In this document: positions 45,940 to 64,000 of the stretch, in pieces
Position numbering within the stretch: the stretch's first letter is position 1
Layout: each line of letters begins with the position of its first letter
From: Mesorhizobium sp. B2-1-1
GTDB lineage: Bacteria > Pseudomonadota > Alphaproteobacteria > Rhizobiales > Rhizobiaceae
Length of the DNA: 64,000 nucleotides
Assembly: GCF_006442975.2 (NCBI RefSeq)
Contig: NZ_CP083954.1
Span: 744,001-808,000 of the forward strand
Direction of reading: 5' to 3'
Position numbers and translations under genes: made by a program
Notes under the pieces: model-generated
The model's input: only the letters and a program-made list of their open reading frames with translations
What the model was told of the DNA's origin: nothing
The model's database searches: none

Positions 45940-46475
45940 TGGCCGGGATGAGCAACACCAACAGCACGGGCCAGGCGATGATGCGCATGGTGATCGGCAT
46001 CGTGGCCCTGGTCGTGCTCACCGCGCTGCTGTTTCTGGCGGCCCCAGACGGCTTCTATCTCTGGGCCAAGGCGATCCACGTTCTTGCCGTCATCTCGTGG
46101 ATGGCGGGCATGCTCTATCTGCCGCGGCTGCTGGTCTATCACGCTGATGCCGAGAAGGGTTCGGTGCAGTCGGAGACTTTCAAGGTGATGGAGCGCCGGC
46201 TGCTGCGCGGCATCATCAACCCGGCGATGATCGTCACCTGGGTATTCGGCCTATGGCTGGCCTGGAAAGGTTTCGGTTTCCAGGGCGGCTGGCTGCACGG
46301 CAAGATCGCGCTGGTGCTGGTTCTGTCGGGCATCCACGGCTATCTGGCCGGCGCGGTGCGAAAATTCGCTGAGGATCGTAACGAAAAACCCGCGAGGCAC
46401 TGGCGGATCGTCAATGAGATCCCCACATTGCTGATGATCGCTATCGTGATCCTGGTCGTCGTCAAGCCGTTCTGA
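45939..46475 (+). CDS. hemJ: Protoporphyrinogen oxidase HemJ (CopD-like membrane protein)
   Basis: 178 aa, four to five transmembrane segments. HemJ signature: LWAKAIHVLAVISWMAGMLYLPRLLVYHAD (the essential His in AIHV, followed by WMAG and LPRL), and later RLLRGIINPAMIVTW. It oxidises protoporphyrinogen IX, and its place right after hemE fits. ATG overlaps the hemE TGA by one base; a second Met (MSNTNSTG, three codons in) is an alternative. Confidence 0.93.
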   Translation: MAGMSNTNSTGQAMMRMVIGIVALVVLTALLFLAAPDGFYLWAKAIHVLAVISWMAGMLYLPRLLVYHADAEKGSVQSETFKVMERRLLRGIINPAMIVTWVFGLWLAWKGFGFQGGWLHGKIALVLVLSGIHGYLAGAVRKFAEDRNEKPARHWRIVNEIPTLLMIAIVILVVVKPF

Positions 46476-46540
46476 ACCTTCAGACCTCTCTCACGACCTG
46501 TTAAAAGGCGGCTTGCTCTTTCAGCCGGCCGACGATAAAA

Positions 46541-46560
46541 GACGGGTCTTCCTTCCCGTC
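46541..46560 (+). promoter_or_regulatory. Hairpin in the rho leader
   Basis: GACGGG/CCCGTC stem with an 8-nt loop in the 174-nt leader between hemJ and rho. Rho leaders are often attenuated autogenously; no T-run directly follows. Function inferred and weak. Confidence 0.3.
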
Positions 46561-46649
46561 ATGCGCCGCCCTTCATTGCTTTTGGCCGCGCCCGGCATTT
46601 ATCGCATCCCGCCGATTTCCTCCCAAAAGCCTACCCAGAGTCTATCCTA

Positions 46650-47915
46650 ATGCAAGAAATGAAACTCACCGAGTTCAAGAACAAGAAACCGCCAGAGCTG
46701 ATCGCCTATGCCGAATCGCTCGAGGTGGAGAACGCCAGCGTCATGCGCAAGCAGGAGCTGATGTTCGCAATCCTCAAGAAGCTGGCCGCCCAGGACATCG
46801 AGATCATCGGCGACGGCGTGGTCGAAGTCTTGCAGGACGGTTTCGGTTTTCTGCGCTCGGCCAACGCCAATTATCTGCCGGGTCCCGACGACATCTATAT
46901 TTCGCCCTCGCAGATCCGGCGCTTTTCGCTCAAGACCGGCGATACGGTCGAAGGGCCGATCCGCAGCCCGAAAGAGGGCGAGCGCTATTTCGCGCTGCTC
47001 AAGGTCAACACGATCAATTTCGACGATCCCGAAAAGATCCGCCACAAGATCCACTTCGACAATCTGACGCCGCTTTATCCGACCAAGCGGCTGAAGATGG
47101 AGATCGACAACCCGACCTCCAAGGATATCTCGCCGCGCGTGATCGATCTGGTGGCGCCGATCGGCAAGGGCCAACGCGCGTTGATCAACGCGCAGCCGCG
47201 TACCGGCAAGACGGTTCTCATGCAGAACATCGCCCATTCGATCACCGCCAACCATCCGGAATGCTACCTGATCGTGCTTCTGATCGACGAGCGGCCGGAG
47301 GAAGTGACAGACATGCAGCGCTCGGTGAAGGGCGAGGTGATCTCCTCGACCTTCGACGAGCCGGCGGTGCGCCACGTGCAGGTCGCCGAAATGGTCATCG
47401 AGAAGGCCAAGCGGCTGGTCGAGCATGGCCGCGACGTCGTCATCCTGCTCGATTCGATCACCCGCCTCGGCCGCGCCTACAACACCGTGGTGCCGTCCTC
47501 CGGCAAGGTGCTGACCGGCGGCGTCGACGCCAATGCCCTGCAAAGGCCGAAGCGCTTCTTCGGTGCCGCCCGCAACATCGAGGAAGGCGGTTCGCTGACC
47601 ATCATCGCCACCGCGCTGATCGATACCGGCAGCCGCATGGACGAAGTTATCTTCGAAGAGTTCAAGGGCACCGGCAACTGCGAAATCCAGCTCGACCGCA
47701 AAGTGGCCGACAAGCGCATCTACCCGGCCATGGACATTCTGAAGTCGGGTACCCGCAAGGAAGACCTGCTGGTGCCGCGCGCTGACCTGCAGAAGATCTT
47801 CGTGCTGCGCCGCATCCTGGCGCCGATGGGAACAACCGACGCGATCGAGTTCCTCATCGACAAGCTGAAGCAGACCAAGACCAACGCGGACTTCTTCGAT
47901 TCGATGAATACGTAG
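46650..47915 (+). CDS. rho: Transcription termination factor Rho
   Basis: 421 aa hexameric RNA helicase. N-terminal Rho-N and CSD RNA-binding region ([48 protein letters not shown]). The ATPase domain has Walker A in [12 protein letters not shown], Walker [12 protein letters not shown] and the Q/R-loop [20 protein letters not shown]. Length is typical of alphaproteobacteria. It lies between hemJ and the mnmE cluster in the conserved origin-proximal order. Confidence 0.98.
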
Positions 47916-47936
47916 TTCGCAGAGCGAACTCCACTT

Positions 47937-48073
47937 CTTCGTGATCCTCGGGCTTGACCCGAGGATCCATGCCATGGCCTCGGCCAAAGAGCGCGGCGGA
48001 CTGGATCTTCCACCTGTTGCAGCGCTCGAAAGTCACGGCATGGATCCTAGGGTCTCCGCGACGGAGCTTCGCC

Positions 48074-48083
<10 letters not shown>
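47937..48083. repeat. Palindromic repeat, family C, intergenic copy
   Basis: Contains ATCCTCGGGCTTGACCCGAG (47944-47963) and an inverted right portion GGCATGGATCC...CCTAGGATGACG. Its left hairpin matches the family C arm inside the E2 gene at 62259-62283 with one difference. The right end overlaps the 3' end of the next gene, giving its stop codon TAG. A 7-bp stem AGTTCGC/GCGAACT (47914-47930) precedes it at the rho stop. Confidence 0.8.
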
Positions 48084-50110
<2,027 letters not shown>

Positions 50111-50174
50111 GATGAGCGGTCCGGCGAAACAGGGGTTGGATAGTGAAGCTAGGGCGGTCCAACAAGGCGGGCAA

Positions 50175-51497
50175 ATGATTTCGGCCGACACCATCGTCGC
50201 GCTTTCCAGCGGCCGCCTGCCCGCCGGCGTCGCCGTCATCCGCATTTCGGGGCCAAAGACTCGATTCGTTGTCGAAACGATCGCCGGCGGTATGGTTAAG
50301 GGCCGCGTGGCCAGCCTGCGCAAGCTGCGGGCGCCCGATGGCGGCGTGCTCGACAGTGGCCTGGTGATCTTTTTCCCCGGCCCCGGCAGCTTCACCGGCG
50401 AGGACGTGGCGGAATTCCAGGTGCATGGCGGCCGCGCCGTGGTGGCGAGGCTGTTGGAGACGATCGCCGGTTTCGAAGGCGTCAGGCACGCCGAAGCGGG
50501 CGAGTTCACGCGCCGGGCCTTCCTCAATGGCAAGGTCGATCTGGTGAGGACGGAAGCGCTGGCCGATCTGGTCAACGCCGAGACCGAGGCGCAGCGGCGC
50601 TTCGCGGTGCAGAATGCCGAGGGCGCGCAAGCCGAGCTTTATCTGAGCTGGCGGCGGCGGCTGATCCATGCTCGCGCCATGATCGAGGCCGAGATCGACT
50701 TTGCCGACGAGGACGATATTCCCGGGTCCGTTTCGGACACGGTCTGGTCTGACGTCTCGGCGATGATTGGGGAGATCGACCGCCACATTGCCGGGTTTCG
50801 TGCCGGCGAAATCCTCCGCGACGGGTTCGAGGTCGTTATCCTCGGCGCCCCAAACGCCGGCAAGTCGAGCCTGTTCAACGCTTTGGCGCGGCGCGATGCA
50901 GCTATTGTAACGGATGAGCCAGGCACGACGCGGGACCTGCTCGAGATCGTACTTGACCTCGAAGGCCTGCGGGTCAGGCTGACCGACACCGCAGGCCTGC
51001 GCGATGCGGCCGGCAAGGTGGAAGCGATCGGCATCGAGAAGGCGCGAGCCAAGGCGCATGGCGCCGACCTCTTGCTCATCCTCGAGGATATGGCCGACCC
51101 GCATCCCGTTGCTCTTCAACGCGAGGGGATCGCGACCCTGCGCGTGGGCACCAAGCTCGATCTGGTGCACGGGCAAGCCGCTGCCGGGGGCTATGATCGC
51201 GCCATCTCGACGAAGGACGGGACCGGCGTGGCGGAGCTGTTGACCGAGATCGCCAGGCTCGCGGCCGCGCAGGTCGGCGAAGCGGGCGACATCCTGCCCT
51301 CACGGCTTCGCCACGTTGAATTGCTAGGCGAAGCCAACCGCTTCCTGCTGCGCGCGGCCGAGAGCCCGGACGCCGGGCAGGAACTGCGCGCCGAGGATCT
51401 GCGGCTGGCCGCCGACCGGCTCGGCCGGATCGTCGGCGCTGTCGATGTCGAGGACATGCTGGATGTGATTTTCTCGCAGTTCTGCATCGGGAAATGA
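50175..51497 (+). CDS. mnmE: tRNA uridine-5-carboxymethylaminomethyl(34) synthesis GTPase MnmE
   Basis: 440 aa, partner of MnmG in wobble uridine modification. The N-terminal folate-binding domain (1-115) starts MISADTIVALSSGRLPAGVA. The G domain has G1 GAPNAGKS at 224-231, followed by DEPGTTRD and DTAG. The C-terminus FCIGK contains the catalytic Cys. The start at 50175 follows AAGGCGGG. Its stop overlaps the first parS-like site. Confidence 0.97.
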   Translation: MISADTIVALSSGRLPAGVAVIRISGPKTRFVVETIAGGMVKGRVASLRKLRAPDGGVLDSGLVIFFPGPGSFTGEDVAEFQVHGGRAVVARLLETIAGFEGVRHAEAGEFTRRAFLNGKVDLVRTEALADLVNAETEAQRRFAVQNAEGAQAELYLSWRRRLIHARAMIEAEIDFADEDDIPGSVSDTVWSDVSAMIGEIDRHIAGFRAGEILRDGFEVVILGAPNAGKSSLFNALARRDAAIVTDEPGTTRDLLEIVLDLEGLRVRLTDTAGLRDAAGKVEAIGIEKARAKAHGADLLLILEDMADPHPVALQREGIATLRVGTKLDLVHGQAAAGGYDRAISTKDGTGVAELLTEIARLAAAQVGEAGDILPSRLRHVELLGEANRFLLRAAESPDAGQELRAEDLRLAADRLGRIVGAVDVEDMLDVIFSQFCIGK

Positions 51498-51510
51498 TTC
51501 ACGTGGAACA
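51495..51510. promoter_or_regulatory. parS-like site 1 (at the mnmE stop)
   Basis: TGATTCACGTGGAACA, two mismatches to TGTTTCACGTGAAACA. It overlaps the last bases of mnmE. Confidence 0.55.
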
Positions 51511-51535
51511 TTGTCGGGGCGCGGACGCCGTCAAG

Positions 51536-51586
51536 CCTCCCTTCTCCCCGTCACGGTGCCGGCAGGCGGATGAGGGGCAGCGCTGA
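51536..51586. repeat. Fragment of a family B palindromic repeat
   Basis: CTTCTCCCCGTCACGGTGCC followed by the GCAGGCGGATGAGGGGCAGCG end. It is a half element with an internal deletion relative to 36078-36131. Confidence 0.6.
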
Positions 51587-51617
51587 CCTCGGCTTCTATC
51601 ACGACGGGCCCGGCCGA

Positions 51618-51633
51618 TAACTCACGTGAAACA
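51618..51633. promoter_or_regulatory. parS-like site 2
   Basis: TAACTCACGTGAAACA; the right half is perfect and the left half has three mismatches. Confidence 0.45.
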
Positions 51634-51654
51634 GAAGGGCTCTCCGACCGACGT

Positions 51655-51670
51655 TGTTTCACGTGAAACG
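51655..51670. promoter_or_regulatory. parS site 3
   Basis: TGTTTCACGTGAAACG, one mismatch to the 16-bp palindromic ParB-binding consensus. Confidence 0.75.
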
Positions 51671-51697
51671 GCTGCGCCGGGGTCAATCGCCAACGTC

Positions 51698-51863
51698 GGC
51701 GCTACCCCGCACTTGCCTGCCGGCATTCTCTTATCCGGCATTCTCTTATAAGGACGGGGAGAGGGCGCGCTGTTATTTCCAGTTTCGGCAATTATCAGCC
51801 TTGTAAATGAAGGTGCCGGCTTTGCGGTCAGCGCTGTCTCCCTGTGCCAGGGAGAAGTGCCGA
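51698..51863. repeat. Degenerate family B repeat with internal 15-bp duplication
   Basis: Remnant arms (CCTGCCGGCATTCTCTTAT..., GACGGGGAGAGGGCG, AAGGTGCCGGC...GCGCTG, and the hairpin CTCCCTGTGCCAGGGAG) recall family B. The left part contains a 15-bp direct duplication CGGCATTCTCTTATx at 51721-51735 and 51736-51750. Confidence 0.5.
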
Positions 51864-51900
51864 CACGGCGCCGGGGGGCGGCGCCGGCGGTCGATACACG

Positions 51901-51916
51901 TGACTCACGTGAAACA
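51901..51916. promoter_or_regulatory. parS-like site 4
   Basis: TGACTCACGTGAAACA, two mismatches. It is centred 37 bp from site 5. Confidence 0.6.
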
Positions 51917-51937
51917 CTACAATGAGGCTCGCCGTCC

Positions 51938-51953
51938 TGTTTCACGTGAAACT
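51938..51953. promoter_or_regulatory. parS site 5
   Basis: TGTTTCACGTGAAACT, one mismatch, 75 bp upstream of the mnmG start. Confidence 0.75.
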
Positions 51954-52027
51954 CCCGCGAAGTTTCTTGACACCGTCCCGCTGCGGGGACATCTCTCCAC
52001 CAAACTTCGAATCCAGGGCGTTTTGAA

Positions 52028-53902
52028 ATGACCGATCACTATGATGTGGTTGTGGTGGGTGGCGGCCATGCGGGCAGCGAGGCGGCCAGCGCGGCTGCGC
52101 GTGCGGGCGCCAGGACAGCGCTGGTGACGCTGCGTTTCGACACGATCGGCGTGATGTCCTGCAATCCGGCCATTGGCGGGCTCGGCAAGGGCCATCTGGT
52201 GCGCGAGATCGACGCCATGGACGGGCTGATGGGCCGGGTGGCGGATGCCGCCGGCATCCAGTTTCGCCTGCTCAACCGGCGCAAGGGGCCGGCCGTGCGC
52301 GGCCCGCGCACCCAGGCCGACCGGAAACTTTACCGGCTCGCCATGCAGGAAGCGATCCGGCAGCAGAACGGTCTCGATGTGATCGAGGGCGAGGTGCTCG
52401 ACTTCGACATCGACGATTCGGGATGCCTGCGCGCCGTTCTCCTGGCCGATGGCCGGCGCCTTGCCAGCGGCGCGGTGGTCCTGACCACCGGAACCTTCCT
52501 ACGCGGGCTGATCCATATCGGCGAGAAGAAGATTGTCGCCGGCCGCATGAATGAACAAGCGAGCCTAGGGCTGTCGGCGACGATGAGCCGCGCAGGCTTC
52601 AAGCTCGGCCGGCTGAAGACCGGCACGCCGCCGCGCCTCGACGGGCGCACCATCGACTGGGCGTCGCTGGAAAGCCAGGCGGCGGATGACGAACCGGTGC
52701 CGTTCTCGCTGCTGACCGACCGCATCGAGACGCCGCAGATCGAATGCGGCATCACGCGCACGACCGCGGCCACGCATGAACTGATCCGCGCCAATCTCGG
52801 GCGCTCGGCCATGTATTCGGGTTCGATCGAAGGCGTCGGGCCGCGCTACTGTCCGTCGATCGAAGACAAGATCGTCAAGTTCGGCGACCGCGAAGGCCAC
52901 CAGATTTTTCTCGAGCCGGAAGGCCTGGACGACGACACGGTCTATCCCAACGGCATCTCGACCTCGCTGCCGGAGGAGGTTCAGCTCGAAATCTTGAAGA
53001 CCATCCCGGGGCTGGACCGAGCGGTGATGCTGCAGCCCGGTTATGCCATCGAATACGACCATGTCGACCCGCGCGAGCTTCATCCGACCTTGGAGACGAA
53101 GCGCGTCGGGGGCCTGTTTCTAGCCGGGCAGATCAACGGCACGACCGGCTATGAGGAGGCCGCCGCGCAAGGTCTGCTGGCGGGCCTCAATGCCGCAAGG
53201 CGGGCGTCGGGCAGCGAGCAAGTCGTGCTCAGCCGCACCGAAGCCTATATCGGCGTCATGGTCGACGATCTGACCAGCCGCGGCATCAGTGAGCCTTACC
53301 GCATGTTCACCTCGCGCGCCGAATTCCGGCTTTCGCTGCGCGCCGACAATGCCGACGAGCGGCTAACGCCGCTGGCTGCAAGGCTGGGTATAGCGTCAGC
53401 CCGGCGGATGCAGCGGTTCGGCGAGGTGGAGCAGCGCCTCGCGGAAGCGCGCCGGCTGGCGCTCGGCGTAAAGCTGACACCCAACGAGGCGGCGCGCCAC
53501 GGGCTGGAGGTCAATCGCGACGGCGTGCGCAGATCCGCCTATGAGCTGCTCGCCTATCCCGGCGTCGACGTGGCTTGGCTGGCCCGAATCGATGGGAATT
53601 TCGGGACGATCGACGCCAGGACGGCGGAGCGCCTCGAAACGGAAGCGAAATATTCGGTTTATCTCGATCGCCAGAAGAGCGACGTCGCCCAGATCCGGCA
53701 CGAGGAAAGCCGGCTCATCCCCGAGTCGCTCGACTTCGCCGAGGTGCCGGGACTATCGAACGAGCTGAAGCAGAAGATGCATGCGCGGCGACCGCGTTCG
53801 GTTGCCGACGCGCAGCGCATGGAAGGGATGACGCCAGCGGCGCTGGCCATCATCGTCGCTCATGTCAGGCATTCCGAGAGCGCGCAAAGGGACGTCGCGT
53901 GA
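52028..53902 (+). CDS. mnmG: tRNA uridine-5-carboxymethylaminomethyl(34) synthesis enzyme MnmG (GidA)
   Basis: 624 aa FAD enzyme acting with MnmE. The N-terminal FAD motif is [20 protein letters not shown], with [20 protein letters not shown] and [18 protein letters not shown], and the C-terminal helical domain follows ([19 protein letters not shown]). Full length. It overlaps the rsmG start (GTGA). The 530-nt upstream gap is the parS region. Confidence 0.98.
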
Positions 53903-54531
53903 GCGCTGCCTCCTGGGAGAGCCTGCGCAACGCCGCCGGTCCGGTTTCACGTGAAACATTCGATCGCCTGGTGGCGTTCGAAGAGATGTTCCAGAAATGG
54001 AATCGCAGCATCAATCTTGTCGCGCAGTCGACAGCAGGCGATGTCTGGCAACGCCACATACTGGACAGCGCGCAGCTCTGGCGAATCGAGGACAAAGCGC
54101 GGCGATGGGTCGATATCGGCTCGGGCGGCGGATTTCCGGGACTGGTGCTGGCGTTCCTGCTTGCCGAGCGTGACGGCGCCAGCATCGACCTGGTCGAAAG
54201 CAATCGCAAGAAAGCGGGATTCCTGCAAGCCGTCGTCGGCCAGTTCGGTCTGCCGGCGCGTGTCGTCGCGCGCCGCATCGATGACAGCCATGCGCTTGTT
54301 TCGGCACCGGAAATCGTCACGGCGCGGGCGCTGGCGCCGCTTTCGACCTTGCTTGAGCTGGCGGGGCCGTGGCTGACATCAGGCGCGCGCGGGCTGTTCC
54401 ACAAAGGCCGGGATTACCGTGCCGAAGTGCAAGAAAGCGTTAACCGCTGGAGCTTCGATCTGGTAGAACATCCAAGCATGACCGACCCTGGCGGCGTCAT
54501 CCTTGAACTGTCCAATGTGCGACCTGTCTGA
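53899..54531 (+). CDS. rsmG: 16S rRNA (guanine527-N7)-methyltransferase (GidB)
   Basis: 210 aa. Starts at GTG 53899, overlapping the mnmG TGA. SAM-binding motif [20 protein letters not shown], with [22 protein letters not shown] ahead of it (typical RsmG) and [20 protein letters not shown] after it. A parS site lies within its first codons (encoding PVSRETF), as in other alphaproteobacteria. It is upstream of parA. Confidence 0.96.
53943..53958. promoter_or_regulatory. parS site 6 inside rsmG
   Basis: GGTTTCACGTGAAACA, one mismatch to the consensus. It lies in the 5' part of rsmG, about 630 bp ahead of parA. Confidence 0.75.
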
Positions 54532-54567
54532 ACAAAGACCTGTCCGAATCCGTGTTGGCGACCCAAA

Positions 54568-55389
54568 ATGAATTCCTGGCATAGACCCATGATGAAGAAC
54601 GGCCCTCGAATCATCACCGTAGCCAACCAGAAGGGCGGTGTCGGCAAGACCACCACCGCCATCAACCTGGCCACCGCGCTGGCGGCGATCGGCGAGAAGG
54701 TGCTGATCGTCGACCTCGATCCGCAAGGCAATGCCAGCACCGGCCTCGGCATCGACCGCAAGGACCGCACGGTGTCGTCCTATGACGTGCTGACCGGCGA
54801 GCTGGAGCTTGAGGAGGCGGCGATCCCGACGGCGGTGCCCGGCCTGTCGATCGTGCCGTCGACCCTCGATTTGCTCGGCATCGAGATGGAGATCGCCTCG
54901 GCGCCGGACCGGGTGCTGCGGCTGCGCAACGCCCTGCGCGCCGCATCGGCGCGTTCGGCCGGGTTTGGCTATGTGCTGATCGACTGTCCGCCGTCGCTCA
55001 ATCTCTTGACCTTGAATTCAATGGCGGCGGCCGATTCCGTTCTGGTGCCGCTGCAATGCGAGTTCTTCGCGCTGGAAGGTCTCAGCCAGCTGCTCGAAAC
55101 CGTCGAGCAGGTGCGCCGCTCGATCAACCCGGATCTCACCATCCAGGGCATCGTGCTGACCATGTATGACGGCCGCAACAACCTCGCCAACCAAGTGGTG
55201 CAGGACGTGCGCGAGCATATGGGTGACAAGGTCTACGAGACCATCATTCCGCGCAATGTGCGGGTGTCTGAAGCGCCGTCCTACGGCAAACCGGCGATCC
55301 TCTACGACCTCAAATGCTCCGGCAGCCAGGCTTATCTGCAGCTTGCGTCGGAAGTGATCCGCCGCGAGCGTAAATTGCGCGCCGCTTAA
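54568..55389 (+). CDS. parA: Chromosome partitioning ATPase ParA
   Basis: 273 aa with deviant Walker A NQKGGVGKTTTAINLA (22-30), switch I/II motifs DLDPQGNASTGLGI and LIDCPPSLNLLT, and the later VLTMYDGRNNLANQV and IPRNVRVSEAPSYGKP. It segregates the origin region together with ParB and parS. Either ATG 54568 or ATG 54589 (MMKNGPRIITVANQKG) may be the start; neither has a strong ribosome binding site. Confidence 0.97.
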   Translation: MNSWHRPMMKNGPRIITVANQKGGVGKTTTAINLATALAAIGEKVLIVDLDPQGNASTGLGIDRKDRTVSSYDVLTGELELEEAAIPTAVPGLSIVPSTLDLLGIEMEIASAPDRVLRLRNALRAASARSAGFGYVLIDCPPSLNLLTLNSMAAADSVLVPLQCEFFALEGLSQLLETVEQVRRSINPDLTIQGIVLTMYDGRNNLANQVVQDVREHMGDKVYETIIPRNVRVSEAPSYGKPAILYDLKCSGSQAYLQLASEVIRRERKLRAA

Positions 55390-55446
55390 CAAGCGGCCGC
55401 GCATGGAGCAAAAGCCGATTCGATACCGAAACAATCTGGAACCGAA

Positions 55447-56334
55447 ATGAGCGAAGACCTTTCGAGAAAGAGACTGGGCCGCGGGCTGGCGGCGCTGATC
55501 GGCGAGATCGACCGTCCGAGCGCGCCGGAGAAGCCCGGGATGAGTGCCGACGGCAAGGTACCGATCGAGTTCCTGACGCCCAATCCGAAAAACCCGCGCC
55601 GGCATTTCGGCGACGCCGAGTTGACCGACCTGGCGCAATCGATCCGCGAGCATGGGGTGGTGCAGCCGGTGGTGGCGCGGCCTTCGCCGTCGCAGGCCGG
55701 GCGCTACGAGATCATCGCCGGCGAGCGGCGCTGGCGTGCCGCGCAACGCGCCGGATTGACCGAGATCCCGGTCATCGTGCGCGAGGTCAACGACCGCACG
55801 GCGCTGGAACTGGCAATCATCGAGAACGTCCAGCGCGCCGACCTCAACCCGGTCGAGGAAGCGCTCGGCTATCAGCAGCTCATCGACGATCACGGCTACA
55901 CCCAGGCCGATCTCGGCCAGGTCATCGGCAAAAGCCGCAGCCATGTCGCCAACACGCTGCGGCTGCTGAAGCTGCCCGACGTGATCCGCGACATGCTGGT
56001 CGACGGGGCCTTGTCGGCGGGCCATGCCCGCACGCTGGTGACGGCGGAGGACCCGGCAGGGCTTGCCAAGCGCATCGTCGAGGAAGGGCTCTCGGTGCGC
56101 CAGGCCGAAGCGCTGGCGCAGATGCCGGCCGGTCCGACCCCGGCGAAGCCGAAGCAGGCGAAAAGCGCGCCGGAAAAAGACGCCGACACGCTGGCGCTGG
56201 AAAAGCTGATGACCGGCACGCTCGGCATGATCGTGACCATCGACCACACGAACAAAGGCGGCGAGATTCGCGTGGCGTACCGGACGCTGGAGCAGCTTGA
56301 CGAGCTGTGTCGGAGATTGAAACAAGAGCGGTAG
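55447..56334 (+). CDS. parB: Chromosome partitioning protein ParB
   Basis: 295 aa. N-terminal ParA-interacting region (SRKRLGRGLAALIGEID). CTP-binding/ParB-N domain with NPRRHFGDAELTDLAQSIREHGVVQP and GERRWRAAQRAGL. HTH with YTQADLGQVIGKSRSHVANTLRLLKLP for parS. C-terminal dimer domain about 240-295. It is 57 nt downstream of parA and followed by a strong terminator. Confidence 0.98.
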   Translation: MSEDLSRKRLGRGLAALIGEIDRPSAPEKPGMSADGKVPIEFLTPNPKNPRRHFGDAELTDLAQSIREHGVVQPVVARPSPSQAGRYEIIAGERRWRAAQRAGLTEIPVIVREVNDRTALELAIIENVQRADLNPVEEALGYQQLIDDHGYTQADLGQVIGKSRSHVANTLRLLKLPDVIRDMLVDGALSAGHARTLVTAEDPAGLAKRIVEEGLSVRQAEALAQMPAGPTPAKPKQAKSAPEKDADTLALEKLMTGTLGMIVTIDHTNKGGEIRVAYRTLEQLDELCRRLKQER

Positions 56335-56383
56335 TTAGCCGGCGAACTTCAACAAAGCGGAAGCTACAACGCAGGGAAAACGA

Positions 56384-56412
56384 GGGCTGGCTGTCCGCCA
56401 GCCCTTTCGTTT
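56384..56412 (+). terminator. Rho-independent terminator of parAB
   Basis: GGGCTGGC/GCCAGCCC stem, loop TGTCC, followed by TTTCGTTT; the palindrome extends to AAACGA...TCGTTT. It is 49 nt past the parB stop. Confidence 0.8.
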
Positions 56413-56648
56413 GAAGCGCTGGCGATTGGCGAAAAAGCAGCGCCATCGGCATCCGTCGCCAGCCGCGCTCGCGGCTTGACAGTGCCCGGCAACGGCGTAA
56501 CCTCTATTAGACAAGGCTTAAATTAATTGCCCTAGCGTGCCGGTCAGTCGCGGCGAGGGCTATCTGCCATTCCTGCAACAGGCGTGAAATGGCACCGCCT
56601 CGCCAAAGCAATATGCCGACGCGCGCCTGACGCAAATGGGAGGTGCAA
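56413..56648. other. Intergenic region upstream of the DUF1326 gene
   Basis: No gene. It holds an AT-rich block CAAGGCTTAAATTAATTGCC at 56513-56532 and a TTGACA at 56477-56482 without a well-placed -10, so the promoter of the DUF1326/DUF2182 operon is probably here but cannot be defined. Confidence 0.4.
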
Positions 56649-57275
56649 ATGGCAGTCCGTTGGCAATTGTCCGGAAGTTACTTCGAAAACTGTAGCTGCG
56701 ATGTCGTGTGTCCTTGCCTGCTGTCCACCAACGCGCAGCTGACATCAAGGCCGACGAACGGCGTTTGCGACGTCGGCCTGGTCTTTCATATCGATACGGG
56801 CAGTTACGGCGACGTCCGTTTGGATGGGCTCAGCGTCGCCATGGTTGCCCACACGCCGGGTCCGATGGCAGACGGCAATTGGACGGCCGCCGCCTATATC
56901 GACGAACGGGCCGATGACAGGCAGACAGAGGCGCTAGGCGCCATCTTCACTGGCGTCGCGGGCGGCCCGATGGCGGTGCTGGCACCCTTGATCGGCACGA
57001 ATCTCGGCGCCAAGAAGGTACCAATAAGCTACCGGATAGACGGCAAGAAGCGGTCGGCGGAGATTGCCGGCGTCATGCGGATGGCGGTCGAGCCGCTGCC
57101 GACGATGCGCGAGGACGGGCAGATGTGGGCGGCCACCGGCCATCCCGTCAATCCCGACTGGCTCGCCTTGGCCATGGGGGCGGAAGGCAGTACATTCAGC
57201 GACCATGGCATGAGCTGGGACAATTCCCGCCGAAACGGACACTACGCCCCGATCAACTGGTCTGGCCAGCAGTAG
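56649..57275 (+). CDS. DUF1326 domain protein
   Basis: 208 aa. The start MAVRWQLSGSYFENCSCDVV follows GGGAGGTGCAA. The cysteine motif NCSCDVVCPCLLS at the N-terminus (C-x-C-x4-C-x-C) and the conserved GSYFENCSC typify DUF1326. The remainder is beta-rich, with WAATGHPVNP near the end. The family is of unknown function but almost always paired with DUF2182, as here (34 nt downstream). The Cys cluster suggests metal or Fe-S binding (inference). Confidence 0.92.
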   Translation: MAVRWQLSGSYFENCSCDVVCPCLLSTNAQLTSRPTNGVCDVGLVFHIDTGSYGDVRLDGLSVAMVAHTPGPMADGNWTAAAYIDERADDRQTEALGAIFTGVAGGPMAVLAPLIGTNLGAKKVPISYRIDGKKRSAEIAGVMRMAVEPLPTMREDGQMWAATGHPVNPDWLALAMGAEGSTFSDHGMSWDNSRRNGHYAPINWSGQQ

Positions 57276-57309
57276 CCGTTGGCCGCATGGTACGGGACGT
57301 ACTTCGTCC

Positions 57310-58098
57310 ATGGTGCAGACGTTGCAGCGATACATCATTCTCGCGCTGCTGATCGCTATCGCGGCGGCGGCATGGACCTTGCTCATCCGGCAGCAGGCGG
57401 GCATGGGCGCGGACATGCGCATGGAAATGTACTCGCTCACCATGGGCATGAAGGCGCCGCTGTTTCTTGCCGTCTGGATGATCATGATGATTGCCATGAT
57501 GTTTCCGACGGCCGCACCCATGATCCTGACATTTCACCGGGTCCAGGCGGGCAAACGGGGCCGGGGCGAGACCTTTGTCTCGAGCTGGGTGTTCGTGGCC
57601 GGGTACATGCTGGTCTGGGGCGTGATGGGCGTTATCGCCTTTGCCGGCGCGGCGGGTGCGGAGATGCTCGCCGGGCATGTGGGATTGTCCACGGCGACGG
57701 CCGCGCGTTTCGGCGGCGCGCTGCTGATGCTTGGGGGCGCCTATCAACTTTCCCCACTGAAGGATCTGTGTCTGGCCAAATGCCGCACGCCGATCGGCTT
57801 CATCCTGACCTCATGGCGCGATGGTTACTGGGGCGCGGTTCGCATGGGCCTTGAGCATGGACTTTTCTGCCTGGGCTGCTGCTGGCTTCTGTTTCTCGCC
57901 CTCTTTCCTCTCGGGATCATGAACGTTGCCGCAATGGCCGTGGTCACCTTGCTGATATTCGCGGAAAAGACCCTGCCGTCTGGAAATGGGATCGCGAAGC
58001 TGTCGGGGATCGCTCTGCTGCTCTATGGCGCGGCGGTGCTGGTCTTTCCACAGGCGCTGCCGACCTTTGAGCCGGTAGGCGCCATGACAATGAATTGA
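57310..58098 (+). CDS. DUF2182 integral membrane protein
   Basis: 262 aa with about seven hydrophobic segments. Family motif WMIMMIAMMFPTAAPMILTF (Met-rich, M-x-x-A-M-M-x-P). Further Cys pairs are LCLAKCRTP and GLFCLGCCWLL, and a Met-rich N-terminus includes GADMRMEMYSLTMGMKAP. Met and Cys clusters point to copper or another soft metal; this is an inference. It forms an operon with the DUF1326 gene. Its stop codon lies inside a 17-bp tandem repeat. Confidence 0.9.
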   Translation: MVQTLQRYIILALLIAIAAAAWTLLIRQQAGMGADMRMEMYSLTMGMKAPLFLAVWMIMMIAMMFPTAAPMILTFHRVQAGKRGRGETFVSSWVFVAGYMLVWGVMGVIAFAGAAGAEMLAGHVGLSTATAARFGGALLMLGGAYQLSPLKDLCLAKCRTPIGFILTSWRDGYWGAVRMGLEHGLFCLGCCWLLFLALFPLGIMNVAAMAVVTLLIFAEKTLPSGNGIAKLSGIALLLYGAAVLVFPQALPTFEPVGAMTMN

Positions 58099-58126
58099 CC
58101 AACGGAGGGAATTGACCAACGGAGGC
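58093..58126. repeat. 17-bp tandem duplication at the DUF2182 stop codon
   Basis: AATTGACCAACGGAGGG at 58093-58109 is repeated at 58110-58126 with one mismatch. The first unit includes the TGA stop. It looks like a recent slippage event. Confidence 0.75.
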
Positions 58127-58148
58127 AGGCGCCCGGTGCCGAAAGGGC

Positions 58149-59192
58149 CTAACGCTGTGCCAGCCTCGCGCTTTCCACCGCGATGCCGAGCAGCGCCTGC
58201 CTTGCCAGCGCCACCGACAGGTCCGGCCTTCGCCGCGTCTGCAGCACGGCGGTCTGCAGCCGGGTCAGCGCGCGGCCGAGCGCCTCGACGCTCCAGCGTT
58301 CCAGCGCCTTCTCCACCAGCTTGCGGCGCGAGAAGAAAACCGGCGGGCGCGCCGCCGCCACCACCGACGCGGCATTGCGGCCGCCGGCCTCCATCTGGCC
58401 GCGCATGGACTGCATCGCCTGAAACTGCCGCATCGCCGAGGACAGCACCAGGAAGGGTTGGCCGCCTGCCTGGCAATGGCGGGTGAAGGCGGTGTCGAAC
58501 TCGCCGACCTTGCCTTCGAGAAGCGCGTCGACGGCATCGTCGAAGGACGCGCCGGAAACGTCGCCGGACATCGCCCTGACGTCGTCGAGGCCGATTTCCT
58601 TCTGGCCATGGACATAAAGCAGCAGCTTGTCGATCTCGCCGCGCGAGGCCAGCCGGTCGCCGCCGAGATTGCGGCGCAGCGCCTGTCTTGCCTCAAGCGT
58701 CATCGTCGCGCCGGTCTTGCGCAGCTCGTCGTCGATCACGGCATCGATGTCCCTGGCCTCGTCGGCATAGCAGGGCAGCGCCATGGCGTTGTCGGCCGCC
58801 TCGACGACGGCGCGCAGCCCGACGCCCTTCTTGAGATCGCCGGCCTCGATGAGGATGATCGCGTCCCGCACGGGCTCCGCCGTCAGCGCCTTGACGTCGT
58901 CGGCCAGCGCCTTCTGGCCGCCGGCATTGCGCACCCACAGCAGGCGGCGGTCGGAAAACATCGGCACGGTGCGCGCCTCGTCGAGCAGCCGGCCCTCGTC
59001 GCGCTCGACTTCGGAGCCGTCGAGCCTGACCACCGAGAAGGGGTCGTCGAGCGGCAGGCCGGTCGCGGCGGCAAAAGCCTTGGCGCGCTCCGAGACAAGG
59101 CCGCGATCGGGGCCATAAAGCAGGACGATCGCCATGCGCGGGTCCGGCTTCGCGAGCCAGGAATCCACTTCGTATGCTTTCTTCTGTGCCAT
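58149..59192 (-). CDS. holA: DNA polymerase III delta subunit
   Basis: 347 aa clamp-loader subunit. N-terminal KPDPRMAIVLLYGPDRGLVSERA (glycine-rich remnant of a Walker site), DEARTVPMFSDRRLLWVRNA and FVLSSAMRQFQAMQSMR-like C-terminal helices (LVLSSAMRQFQAM). The start MAQKKAYEVDSWLAK lacks a clear ribosome binding site. In many Hyphomicrobiales holA follows leuS and lptE; neither is upstream here, where repeats and a 2-oxoacid dehydrogenase operon are found instead. Confidence 0.94.
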   Translation of the reverse strand: MAQKKAYEVDSWLAKPDPRMAIVLLYGPDRGLVSERAKAFAAATGLPLDDPFSVVRLDGSEVERDEGRLLDEARTVPMFSDRRLLWVRNAGGQKALADDVKALTAEPVRDAIILIEAGDLKKGVGLRAVVEAADNAMALPCYADEARDIDAVIDDELRKTGATMTLEARQALRRNLGGDRLASRGEIDKLLLYVHGQKEIGLDDVRAMSGDVSGASFDDAVDALLEGKVGEFDTAFTRHCQAGGQPFLVLSSAMRQFQAMQSMRGQMEAGGRNAASVVAAARPPVFFSRRKLVEKALERWSVEALGRALTRLQTAVLQTRRRPDLSVALARQALLGIAVESARLAQR

Positions 59193-60863
<1,671 letters not shown>

Positions 60864-60866
60864 GCC

Positions 60867-61880
60867 ATGCCGAGGCGGACCATGATCGAGGCCATTCGCG
60901 ACGCGATGGACGTGTCGATGGGGCGCGACGAGAAAGTGGTGGTGTTCGGCGAGGATGTCGGCTTTTTCGGCGGCGTGTTCCGCTGCACGCAAGGCCTGCA
61001 GGCGAAATACGGCAAGAGCCGCTGCTTCGACGCACCGATCAATGAATCCGGCATTGTCGGCTCGGCCATCGGCATGGCCGCCTATGGTCTGAAGCCGTGC
61101 GTGGAGATCCAGTTTGCCGACTACATGTACCCGGCCTACGACCAGCTGACCCAGGAAGCCGCGAGGCTGCGCTACCGCTCGAACGGCGACTTCACCTGCC
61201 CGATCGTGGTGCGCATGCCGACGGGCGGCGGCATATTCGGCGGCCAGACGCACAGCCAAAGCCCGGAAGCGTTGTTCACCCATGTGTCGGGGCTGAAGAC
61301 CGTCGTGCCCTCGAACCCGCATGACGCCAAGGGGTTGCTGATCGCGGCGATCGAGGATCCCGACCCGGTCATCTTCCTCGAGCCGAAGCGGCTCTACAAC
61401 GGCCCCTTCGACGGCCATCACGACCGGCCGGTGACGCCGTGGTCGAAGCACGAGCTGGGCGAGGTCGCCGACGGCCACTACACCGTGCCGCTCGGCAAGG
61501 CCGCGATCCGCCGGGCCGGCTCCGCCGTCACGGTGTTGGCGTACGGCACAATGGTCTATGTCGCGCAGGCGGCGGCCGAGGAGACCGGCATCGATGCCGA
61601 GATCGTCGATCTCAGGACGCTGTTGCCGCTCGACCTCGACACCATCGTGGCGTCGGTGAAGAAGACCGGACGCTGCGTCGTGGTGCACGAGGCGACGCTG
61701 ACCTCCGGCTTCGGAGCGGAGCTGGTCGCGCTTGTGCAGGAAAACTGCTTCTACCATCTGGAGGCACCGGTGGCCCGCGTCGCCGGCTGGGACACGCCCT
61801 ATCCGCATGCGCAGGAATGGGACTATTTCCCCGGTCCGGCCCGCGTCGGCCGGGCGCTTACGGAAACATTGGAAGCCTAG
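60867..61880 (+). CDS. bkdA2: Branched-chain 2-oxoacid dehydrogenase E1 beta subunit
   Basis: 337 aa transketolase-like beta subunit, starting MPRRTMIEAIRDAMDVSMGR just 3 nt after the alpha subunit stop. Motifs: VVVFGEDVGFFGGVFRCTQGL, PINESGIVGSAIGMA, PTGGGIFGGQTHSQSPEALF and a C-terminal VVHEATLTSGFGAE. There is no lipoyl domain fused to it, unlike rhizobial PdhB, which supports the branched-chain assignment. Confidence 0.95.
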   Translation: MPRRTMIEAIRDAMDVSMGRDEKVVVFGEDVGFFGGVFRCTQGLQAKYGKSRCFDAPINESGIVGSAIGMAAYGLKPCVEIQFADYMYPAYDQLTQEAARLRYRSNGDFTCPIVVRMPTGGGIFGGQTHSQSPEALFTHVSGLKTVVPSNPHDAKGLLIAAIEDPDPVIFLEPKRLYNGPFDGHHDRPVTPWSKHELGEVADGHYTVPLGKAAIRRAGSAVTVLAYGTMVYVAQAAAEETGIDAEIVDLRTLLPLDLDTIVASVKKTGRCVVVHEATLTSGFGAELVALVQENCFYHLEAPVARVAGWDTPYPHAQEWDYFPGPARVGRALTETLEA

Positions 61881-61896
61881 AACGGGGAGGCCCGAC

Positions 61897-63276
61897 ATGG
61901 GCGAACACATCATCAAGCTGCCCGATGTCGGCGAGGGCGTCGCCGAGGCGGAACTCGTCGAATGGCATGTCAAGGTCGGCGACATCGTGCGCGAGGACAT
62001 GATGCTTGCCGCCGTGATGACCGACAAGGCCACGGTCGAGATCCCTTCCCCCGTCGACGGCGAGATCCTGTGGCTGGGCGCCGATATCGGCGACACGGTG
62101 GCGATCGGCTCGCCCATCGTGCGGCTGAAGGTGGCCGGCGAGGGCAATGTCGTTGGCGGTGCGATGCCGGCGGAAGTGACGGCTGAAAGTATCTCCGATG
62201 ATACGGGGGCTCGCCCGGTCTCGGACCTGGAGCCGTCATCGCCCAATCTGTCGCCGTCATCCTCGGGCTTGTCCCGAGGATCCGCCGTCCCACAGGGATA
62301 TGACGCGACCAGTTCCGGAAGGTCGGTAGATCCTCGGGACAAGCCCGAGGATGACGGCGCCAGGTCCAAGGTCAACAGCGCGCCGCGTGCGCAAGGTGAA
62401 AGGCCGCTGGCCTCGCCGGCCGTGCGGCTGCGTGCGAAGGAAGCGGGCATCGACCTCAGGCAGGTCCAGGGAAGCGGCCCGGCCGGTCGCATCGGCCATG
62501 AGGACATCGAGGCGTTCCTGGCGCGCGGGCCGCACATGGCCAAGGCATCCGGCCTCGCCCGCAACGATGCCGTCGAGGACATCAAGGTGGTGGGCCTGCG
62601 GCGCAAGATCGCCGAGAAGATGACGCTGGCGGCGTCGCGCATCCCGCACATCACCTATGTCGAGGAGGTCGACGTTACCGCGCTCGAGGATCTGCGCGCC
62701 GCGCTCAACAAGGAGAAGCGGGCGGCCAAGGGGGTAGAAAGGCCAAAGCTGACGCTGCTGCCGTTCCTGATGCGCGCGATGGTCAGGGCGATCGCGGACC
62801 AGCCCAACCTCAATGCGCTGTTCGACGACGAGGCCGGCATCATCCACCAGCATGGCGGCATTCATATCGGCATCGCCGCGCAGACGCCGTCGGGACTGGT
62901 CGTGCCCGTCGTCAAGCACGCCGAGGCGCTGGACATCTGGGAATGCGGCGCGGAGGTCGCCAGGCTGGCCGAGGCGGCCAAGTCGGGAACCGCGACGCGC
63001 GACGAGCTCTCCGGTTCGACCATAACCATCACCTCGCTCGGTGCCATGGGCGGCGTGGCGACGACTCCGGTCATCAACCACCCGGAAGTCGCGATCCTCG
63101 GCGTTAACAAGATGATGGTGCGGCCGGTATGGGACGGCACCCAGTTCATCCCGCGCAAGATGATGAACCTGTCGTCGAGCTTCGACCATCGCGTCATCGA
63201 CGGCTGGGACGCGGCGGTGTTCATCCAGCGCATCAAGACGCTCCTGGAAACGCCGGCGCTGATTTTCGTGGATTGA
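61897..63276 (+). CDS. bkdB: Branched-chain 2-oxoacid dehydrogenase E2 (dihydrolipoamide acyltransferase)
   Basis: 459 aa. One lipoyl domain (1-80, lipoyl Lys44 in MTDKATVEI), a linker (about 85-170), the E1/E3-binding domain (about 171-207: SPAVRLRAKEAGIDLRQVQG) and the catalytic domain (about 225-459), with the active site His-Asp in SSFDHRVIDGWDA. Residues 119-155 of the linker (including SSSGLSRGS and DPRDKPEDDG) are encoded by a 108-bp palindromic repeat inserted in frame. The ribosome binding site is GGGGAGG. It is co-transcribed with bkdA1A2. Confidence 0.95.
   Translation: MGEHIIKLPDVGEGVAEAELVEWHVKVGDIVREDMMLAAVMTDKATVEIPSPVDGEILWLGADIGDTVAIGSPIVRLKVAGEGNVVGGAMPAEVTAESISDDTGARPVSDLEPSSPNLSPSSSGLSRGSAVPQGYDATSSGRSVDPRDKPEDDGARSKVNSAPRAQGERPLASPAVRLRAKEAGIDLRQVQGSGPAGRIGHEDIEAFLARGPHMAKASGLARNDAVEDIKVVGLRRKIAEKMTLAASRIPHITYVEEVDVTALEDLRAALNKEKRAAKGVERPKLTLLPFLMRAMVRAIADQPNLNALFDDEAGIIHQHGGIHIGIAAQTPSGLVVPVVKHAEALDIWECGAEVARLAEAAKSGTATRDELSGSTITITSLGAMGGVATTPVINHPEVAILGVNKMMVRPVWDGTQFIPRKMMNLSSSFDHRVIDGWDAAVFIQRIKTLLETPALIFVD
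62252..62359. repeat. Family C palindromic element inserted in frame in bkdB
   Basis: Inverted repeat with 31-bp perfect arms (62252-62282 and 62329-62359) and a 46-nt centre. The total is 108 bp, exactly 36 codons. Each arm contains an inner hairpin CCTCGGG/CCCGAGG. The arm matches the intergenic element at 47943-47968. The translated peptide is polar and Ser/Asp/Gly-rich, tolerable in a flexible linker. Confidence 0.9.
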
Positions 63277-63306
63277 CGGTGGATCATTCGAGATGATGGC
63301 GGGAGA

Positions 63307-63466
63307 GCGCCCCCCTCTGCCTTGCCAGGCATCTCCCCCACAAGGGGGGAGATCAGATGTCACGCCGGCTTTCGCCAATCACCAGCGCTGCGGGATTGAG
63401 CGAGGCGCCGAAGCCTCCAATCTCCCCCCTTGTGGGGGAGATGTCCGGCAGGACAGAGGGGGGCGC
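63307..63466. repeat. Palindromic intergenic repeat, family A, copy 3
   Basis: Left arm GCGCCCCCCTCTGCC...GGGGGGAGAT (63307-63353) and right arm ATCTCCCCCC...GGGGGGCGC (63420-63466), nearly complementary. It lies inside the bkd operon between the E2 gene and lpdA. Confidence 0.88.
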
Positions 63467-63510
63467 GAAGAATCTCGACGGAGCGTTTCCTCGGATCGAA
63501 GGGTCACGTC

Positions 63511-64000
63511 ATGAAAGAAATCTCCTGCAAGCTGCTGGTCATCGGCGCGGGGCCGGGCGGCTATGTCTGCGCTATTCGTGCCGGGCAGCTCGGCGTCGAT
63601 ACCGTCATCGTCGAGGCCGGCAAGCCGGGCGGCACCTGTCTCAATGTTGGCTGCATTCCTTCCAAGGCACTGATCCATGCAGCGGAGGAGTTCGAGAAGG
63701 TCGCGCAGATGGCGGGCGGCAACAGCCCGCTCGGCATTTCGGTGGCCGCGCCGGCGCTGGATCTGGGCAAGACGGTCGCCTGGAAGGACGGCATCGTTAG
63801 TCGGCTTAACAGCGGTGTCGCCGGCCTGCTCAAGAAGGCCGGGGTGAAGACCGTGCAGGGCTGGGCGACGTTTCGAGACGGCAAGACCGTCGCGGTCGAG
63901 ACCGAGACGGGAAGCCAGGTGATCCGCGCCGAAGCGGTGGTGATCGCCACCGGCTCGGCGCCGGTCGAATTGCCGTTCCTGCCGTTCGGCGGGCCGGTGA
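63511..64000 (+). CDS. lpdA: Dihydrolipoyl dehydrogenase (E3), N-terminal part (runs off the window edge)
   Basis: 163 residues visible from ATG 63511 ([20 protein letters not shown]), with GAAGGG upstream. The FAD Rossmann motif is [19 protein letters not shown]. The redox-active disulfide is in [30 protein letters not shown] follows near the edge. It regenerates the lipoyl disulfide of the E2 protein; its place after bkdB shows it is the E3 of this complex. It is separated from bkdB by 234 nt containing repeat A3. Confidence 0.95.

Follow-up and report, generated by a model that had tools for sequence, protein, structure and literature searches.

Probable repeated overwriting of an E2 acyltransferase linker by palindromic repeats in Mesorhizobium

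The linker between the lipoyl and E3-binding domains of an E2 acyltransferase appears to have been overwritten repeatedly by palindromes across the genus Mesorhizobium. In Mesorhizobium sp. B2-1-1, the palindrome is probably a dimer of CGTC-tagged REPs, non-autonomous and copied into the stretch of the gene that codes for the linker (we place the probability of this reading at about 0.75). The element, here referred to as A, lies near the end of the window, i.e., the whole 64,000-nucleotide stretch of contig NZ_CP083954.1 that was analysed. Its usual unit is 102 bp, a multiple of three, and the reading frame is kept; E2 function would have been retained, since the segment joining the lipoyl and E3-binding domains presumably needs only to be flexible and soluble, so that in-frame arrivals may survive there. 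Genus-wide, the overwriting would have been carried out by A, by an unrelated palindrome family (B) and by a longer variant of B, with the older linker being lost locally. A wider reading, to which we give somewhat less than even odds, is that unrelated palindromes enter, replace each other in frame and homogenise with dispersed copies family-wide, in which case mobile DNA and not point mutation would be a main source of new E2 linker sequence.

The best-known palindromic repeats that sit in frame are those of Rickettsia, an obligate intracellular genus. In the present case, about 140 orthologues from a free-living genus point to one defined protein segment being replaced many times by repeat-derived peptide, as if junk-like repeats keep becoming protein linker. 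Several questions thereby become testable: are such peptides no more than neutral filler, by what means do repeats spread in the absence of a known transposase, and at what rate are disordered linkers rewritten? The complex is well studied, and its swinging-arm linker lends itself to such measurements.

Structure of element A and its host gene

The host gene encodes a branched-chain-type E2 (Table 1), the catalytic domain of which covers residues 225-457 (Pfam). An initial annotation, made from the window sequence, had described a 108-bp palindrome with 31-nt perfect arms that keeps the frame open between the lipoyl and subunit-binding domains, and the sequence check and the Pfam domains bear this out. 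The palindrome touches residues 119-155 (phase 1) and, as these are flanked by the two Pfam domains, it lies inside the linker; only one of the three coding-strand frames is free of stops across it, namely, the frame in use. With mismatches allowed, 43-nt arms are obtained at 91% (62248-62290/62321-62363). The same annotation had equated the palindrome with a 36-codon unit. Its length of 108 nt stands, but the mobile unit is better delimited by the CGTC tags, which give 102 nt or 34 codons.

Table 1. Coordinates of the features discussed, in window numbering
Feature	Position	Strand	Basis
Intergenic REP of the A family, downstream of a gene read as rho	47945..47966	.	motif search
E2 acyltransferase gene, bkdB-like, 459 aa	61897..63276	+	ORF and translation, Pfam domains, Mesorhizobium orthologues
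Lipoyl domain, residues 6-77	61912..62127	+	Pfam PF00364
Possible relic of the left arm of the B variant, left of A	62206..62228	+	local alignment score 13, p 0.006 against 500 codon shuffles
Inverted repeat of 108 nt with 31-nt perfect arms	62252..62359	.	arms are exact reverse complements
CGTC-tagged REP dimer, 102 nt, likely mobile unit	62255..62356	.	tags, stems and loops in the sequence; copy lengths elsewhere
Left REP: CGTC 62255-62258, 9-bp stem 62259-62267/62273-62281, 5-nt loop 62268-62272, tail CCG	62255..62284	+	sequence compared with the available description in PMC3733652
Spacer of 46 nt; 80% identity with the consensus built from dispersed copies of equal spacer length (n=12)	62283..62328	.	
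Right REP, the left REP inverted	62327..62356	-	sequence
E3-binding (subunit-binding) domain, residues 170-205	62404..62511	+	Pfam PF02817

The anatomy of A agrees with CGTC-3 as described in the available text of Di Nocera, De Gregorio and Rocco (2013; PMC3733652), and the element can be described as a CGTC-3-like REP dimer. Its CGTC tag is answered by an inverted GACG at 62353-62356, and the stem ATCCTCGGG/CCCGAGGAT around the loop CTTGT has the 9 bp, the AT start and the 5-nt loop of CGTC-3, although these stem and loop lengths are common to CGTC families 3 and 4 (PMC3733652). The tails are CCG and CTA in the E2 copy and CCA at a second copy near 47.9 kb, CCA being the tail given for CGTC-3. 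That family is also described as mostly alphaproteobacterial, forming inverted dimers with conserved spacers, some of them intragenic; A is likewise an inverted dimer, and its 46-nt spacer is kept in dispersed copies. Lastly, the accessible text of the same paper reports that no dedicated transposase was found for CGTC REPs, and no match to the RAYT domain PF01797 was obtained in the window's own genome, with the control search being positive in 5/14 genomes.

Other repeat classes were considered as well. A GTAG REP or REPIN with its RAYT does not fit, as the tag is CGTC and the window's genome has no PF01797 match. As regards a classical MITE, the E2 copy has inverted arms, and no flanking direct repeat was seen by eye at the occupied site. 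At the gathering threshold, Rfam gave no match in 46000-64000. A structure prediction of E2 (20-row alignment) had a mean pLDDT of 31.9, and hence no claim on disorder is drawn from it. Two further features of this locus were noted, namely, an open frame of 804 aa antisense to E1 and E2 (60240-62654, minus strand), which is presumably spurious in a GC-rich genome, and another long inverted repeat at 63307-63466, in the intergenic region downstream of the E2 gene. The latter has 64-nt arms that are 81% complementary and 32 nt apart, and is by eye a different repeat.

Copies of A in the genome and the genus

Searching the window with the motif TCCTCGGGNNNNNCCCGAGGAT at up to three mismatches gave six matches (three sites on both strands) against 0.59 expected, a number reached by none of 100 shuffles. 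The arm repeat that had been noticed at 47.9 kb is a single intact REP with 2/26 mismatches to the arm core. It is located directly 3' of the gene read as rho and has a degenerate inverted partner at 48034-48054. In the window's whole genome, the core occurs at five loci at up to one mismatch, i.e., the E2 dimer, the 47.9-kb copy and three more. Across the genus, the full dimer (exact arms, 20-50 nt spacer) was found at 25 places in 10/146 genomes, five of these places being in E2. Such full-length copies in related genomes, spacer included, uphold the earlier description of A as a dispersed mobile-type element.

The copies in E2 are 102 nt long in seven of eight genes and 96 nt in the eighth, so that all are divisible by three; the dispersed copies are 102 nt long in 12/20 cases and divisible by three in 13/20. 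The right arm is identical over 28 nt in all eight carriers. A consensus of dispersed spacers, built from the 12 of 20 that are 46 nt long, is 80-87% identical, in forward orientation, to the E2 spacers of L012 (the window's E2), L013 and L014, and the 80% identity of the window's spacer marks it as part of an inserted repeat. The spacers of L018 and L024 fit the consensus best when reversed (score 10, with 8.5 as the 99.9% point of the null), albeit at 61% identity only, L017 fits weakly in forward orientation, and L051 fits neither way clearly. The presence of both orientations weakly suggests that A was inserted more than once.

Linker types among Mesorhizobium relatives

In total, 141 E2 genes from 146 genus genomes were compared, with linkers being read as far as the contigs allow. 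Eight linkers carry A, 39 carry the unrelated palindrome B, and 94 are plain sequences rich in Pro, Ala and Lys; about a third of the genes (47/141) thus contain A or B. Types were called at 90% arm identity for A and 75% for B, while L044, L045, L047 and L054 were set to B by hand (L054 was confirmed to carry the B variant) and L189 was set to a separate class D. The arms of B resemble TACCCCCACCCCTAACCCCTCCCCACAAGGGGGAGGGG, and B is translated as TPTPNPSPQGGGG ... SPSPLWGGARGGG. Palindromic linkers in the genus measure 255-339 nt (median 293.5, n=44) and plain ones 204-282 nt (median 228, n=94). An inverted-repeat score that is blind to family reached at least 14 in 45/161 linkers versus 2/161 after codon shuffling; 7 of 168 linkers (L188, L190, L194, L196, L044, L045 and L047) were left out of this scoring. 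Outside the genus, 6/23 outgroup rows of the E2 tree have B in E2 as well. In two loci from other genera, L188 and L189, the E2 linker has a third repeat-like peptide, SSPPSPRRGEEE ..., possibly from another repeat family.

B is read in one phase almost throughout. In the genus B linkers with a length that is a multiple of three (n=33), the right arms (33/33) and the left-arm matches (33/33) share a single phase. When the count is limited to arms with 85% or more identity to the consensus, outgroups and broken genes included, the same holds for 31/31 left and 30/32 right arms. The second family (39/141), the layering of elements described below and a second gene, sufS, are missing from the initial annotation.

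That annotation had also foreseen a clean 36-codon gap in relatives, which was not what the comparison gave: non-carriers have a largely different linker. A linker lacking exactly A was absent from 120 listed E2 proteins and from the nine closest discordant pairs aligned, and neither for A nor for B did the relatives compared offer an empty site whose flanks otherwise match, for which reason we infer the insertion of A and B rather than observe it.

The longer B variant, which has an extra hairpin, is itself dispersed, occurring in 33/146 genomes (up to two mismatches) and, by coordinates, at five places in E2. To the left of A, a stretch resembling this variant scores 14-20 in five of eight A linkers (L013, L014, L018, L024 and L051, with L014 at 16 and L051 at 20), whereas none of 110 plain linkers reaches 14 in the same test. 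It is therefore likely, judged from these alignments, that five of the eight A linkers hold a relic of the B variant. The window's own linker scores 13 and is merely suggestive, since plain linkers also go up to 13, and the scores of L015 (11) and L017 (9) are unconvincing.

History of the linker

In a quick E2 tree computed without the linker (164 rows), the linker types are scattered and require at least 33 changes. The starred branches alone force 13 changes for B and five for A, which should be read in the light of many poorly supported branches, non-independent rows and the program's own warning that stars are less trustworthy with long rows. Four of 27 outgroup loci that failed the domain pattern (L188, L190, L194 and L196) are omitted from this tree. 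A tree of the upstream neighbouring gene (27 rows, from 30 loci with long flanks) requires seven changes of linker type where two is the minimum possible.

Scatter of this kind could also have come about through a single ancient entry of each palindrome into the E2 linker, followed by the exchange of whole linker alleles between species by homologous recombination, a history that we hold to be less likely. It draws support from the A linkers of L012-L015, which have common non-palindromic flanks though they lie apart in the E2 tree, and from L015, in which the left part matches one A type and the right part a different one, so that it looks like a chimera; these linkers argue that allele exchange also plays a part. 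B spacers, too, are slightly more alike genus-wide than shuffled ones (0.57 versus 0.51 at 88% domain identity), a weak similarity in the same direction. Some pairs of genes with domains that are 94-95% identical have linkers that differ for the most part, although L051/L135, one of nine such pairs shown, has the right end in common. However, discordant pairs have no extra divergence adjoining the linker. Over the 105 nt beside it, 61 discordant and 154 concordant pairs, which are non-independent, gave 0.945 versus 0.947 on the lipoyl side and 0.900 versus 0.903 on the E3-binding side. The two orientations of the A spacer count weakly against a single entry as well.

The codon positions of B speak against a single old entry in another way. 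In the 33 in-frame genus linkers, diversity at the first, second and third codon positions of the right arm is 0.14/0.17/0.15; that of the unfiltered left arms, a set in which longer variants align badly, is 0.23/0.17/0.22. With arms restricted to 85% consensus identity or more, diversity is 0.05-0.10 per codon position, the filter itself lowering these values. The first seven and last nine linker codons of the same genes have third-position values of 0.40 and 0.37, respectively, with at most 0.06 at the other positions. The arms are thus far more conserved at third positions than the neighbouring codons, and the flat profile implies that they are conserved as DNA and not as protein. This pattern indicates that the B arms would be either recent arrivals or sequences homogenised or converted by dispersed copies. 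Repeated insertion, as in our preferred reading, and allele exchange may both have contributed.

Other genes carrying the repeats

The E2 linker need not be special if insertion is neutral and random and becomes visible here only because linkers tolerate it. Flexible linkers have indeed been proposed as tolerant REP sites (PMC3733652, available text), and a second gene is affected, at its 5' end (see below). We nevertheless find this account rather doubtful, because no scanned ORF elsewhere has Pfam domains on both sides of a repeat, as opposed to 47/141 E2 genes, in what is a partial survey. For A, 33 ORFs of at least 90 aa span the 20 dispersed exact dimers, and none of the 20 longest has Pfam domains on both sides. 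For B, exact arms occur at 66 places in 28 genomes, and none of the 21 ORFs from 14 of 17 fetched non-E2 loci has domains on both sides; this part of the survey is partial, and ORFs lacking a Pfam domain prove nothing. Apart from SufS, described below, the long ORFs spanning dispersed copies gave Pfam matches only to MnmG/GidA (L155), LysE (L271) and an HPr-kinase domain (L222), and in all three the element precedes the domain, towards the N-terminal end of the ORF. The ORF at L234 has Pfam hits below the cut-off.

A wider peptide search gave matches in 15/146 genomes, from which 14 further places were followed and 11 ORFs from 10 of them were scanned. In two of the 15 genomes with translated matches, A is carried by the 5' end of sufS (L297 in G138 and L298 in G107). 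Here, the right arm runs into the coding sequence of the cysteine desulfurase SufS, and its peptide DPRDKPEDDG replaces the usual N-terminus. As read from sequence alone, SufS starts with MDQK in 26 of 29 other genomes, the remaining three having MDQN, VDQK and a different start. With the start codon of G138 and G107 likely lying in the A spacer, the repeat seems to have built a new SufS N-terminus in these two genomes.

Function and assembly

Selection for a function would be another way of keeping palindromes in the gene; the hairpin might adjust translation or mRNA stability within the operon, or the encoded linker peptide might alter the behaviour of the complex. The RNA is predicted to be very stable (-106 kcal/mol for 62220-62390, z -10), and the two B arms of a gene pair better with each other than with arms from other genes (34.96 versus 34.52 of 37, permutation p 0.0016). 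Such a role is improbable all the same, given that 94/141 orthologues do without a palindrome, that pairing is perfect over 37 nt in only 4/26 B pairs, and that the arm sequences equal those of dispersed copies, so that recent origin explains the complementarity without selection.

An assembly or annotation artefact has a negligible chance of being the explanation: three E2 contigs end at B (G040, G080 and G098), one has a run of N within it (G143) and 2/39 B genes have a frameshift inside the palindrome (L042 in G029 and L046 in G047), but 135/141 genus E2 genes align over at least 458/459 residues without a stop, related A linkers recur in separate genomes and, contrary to the objection foreseen in the initial annotation, the same linker element is present in separate assemblies of other species. 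The assemblies break or have a gap at the B palindrome in L044, L045, L047 and L043, and draft genomes may therefore under-report such E2 genes. The frameshifts of L042 and L046 may be sequencing errors in G-rich hairpins or real loss.

Relation to known repeats

No description of such insertions among rhizobial repeats had been known to the initial annotation, a view that is not quite right. In the available text of PMC3733652, GTAG and CGTC REPs are reported inside genes of several species, some in frame, and CGTC families in S. meliloti, A. tumefaciens and Bradyrhizobium; in-frame repeats, including the Rickettsia palindromic elements (RPEs), are reviewed in PMC2229807. As in-frame REPs are already in print, the kind of event is known. 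What is new, as far as our searches show, is that one linker has been overwritten repeatedly by unrelated palindromes. Literature searches on rhizobial, in-frame or E2 palindromes returned no description of the E2 linker case among the matches listed, with subscription journals mostly uncovered, and the words Mesorhizobium, acetyltransferase and dehydrogenase are absent from the main text of PMC3733652. In that text, unlike in E2, no linker is hit by unrelated families, the nearest case being different REPs at about the same recB site in X. campestris and X. oryzae.

The likeness to RPEs was closer than had been supposed, for RPE-4 and RPE-6 are CGTC REPs (PMC3733652, available text). RPEs are palindromic repeats of about 105-146 bp that are fused in frame to conserved protein genes (PMC2229807 and PMC3733652, as available), and A likewise lies in conserved genes, in frame in 8/141 E2 genes and at the sufS 5' end of two genomes. 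They differ in spread: 19 Rickettsia reading frames are affected by RPEs, as against one gene recurrently across a free-living genus, plus sufS in two genomes. QMITE1/2 of Coxiella burnetii are also short inverted repeats, some in frame in ORFs, but they are other elements, likened here by their description; QMITE2 has partial relatives in Bradyrhizobium, and no single recurrent linker is described in the available text (PMC5896051). Long perfect inverted repeats in translated genes are further known from Nematomorpha mitochondria, where, according to the available account, the arms encode conserved parts of proteins (PMC6649704), whereas those of A and B occur within a variable linker and have dispersed repeats as their counterparts.
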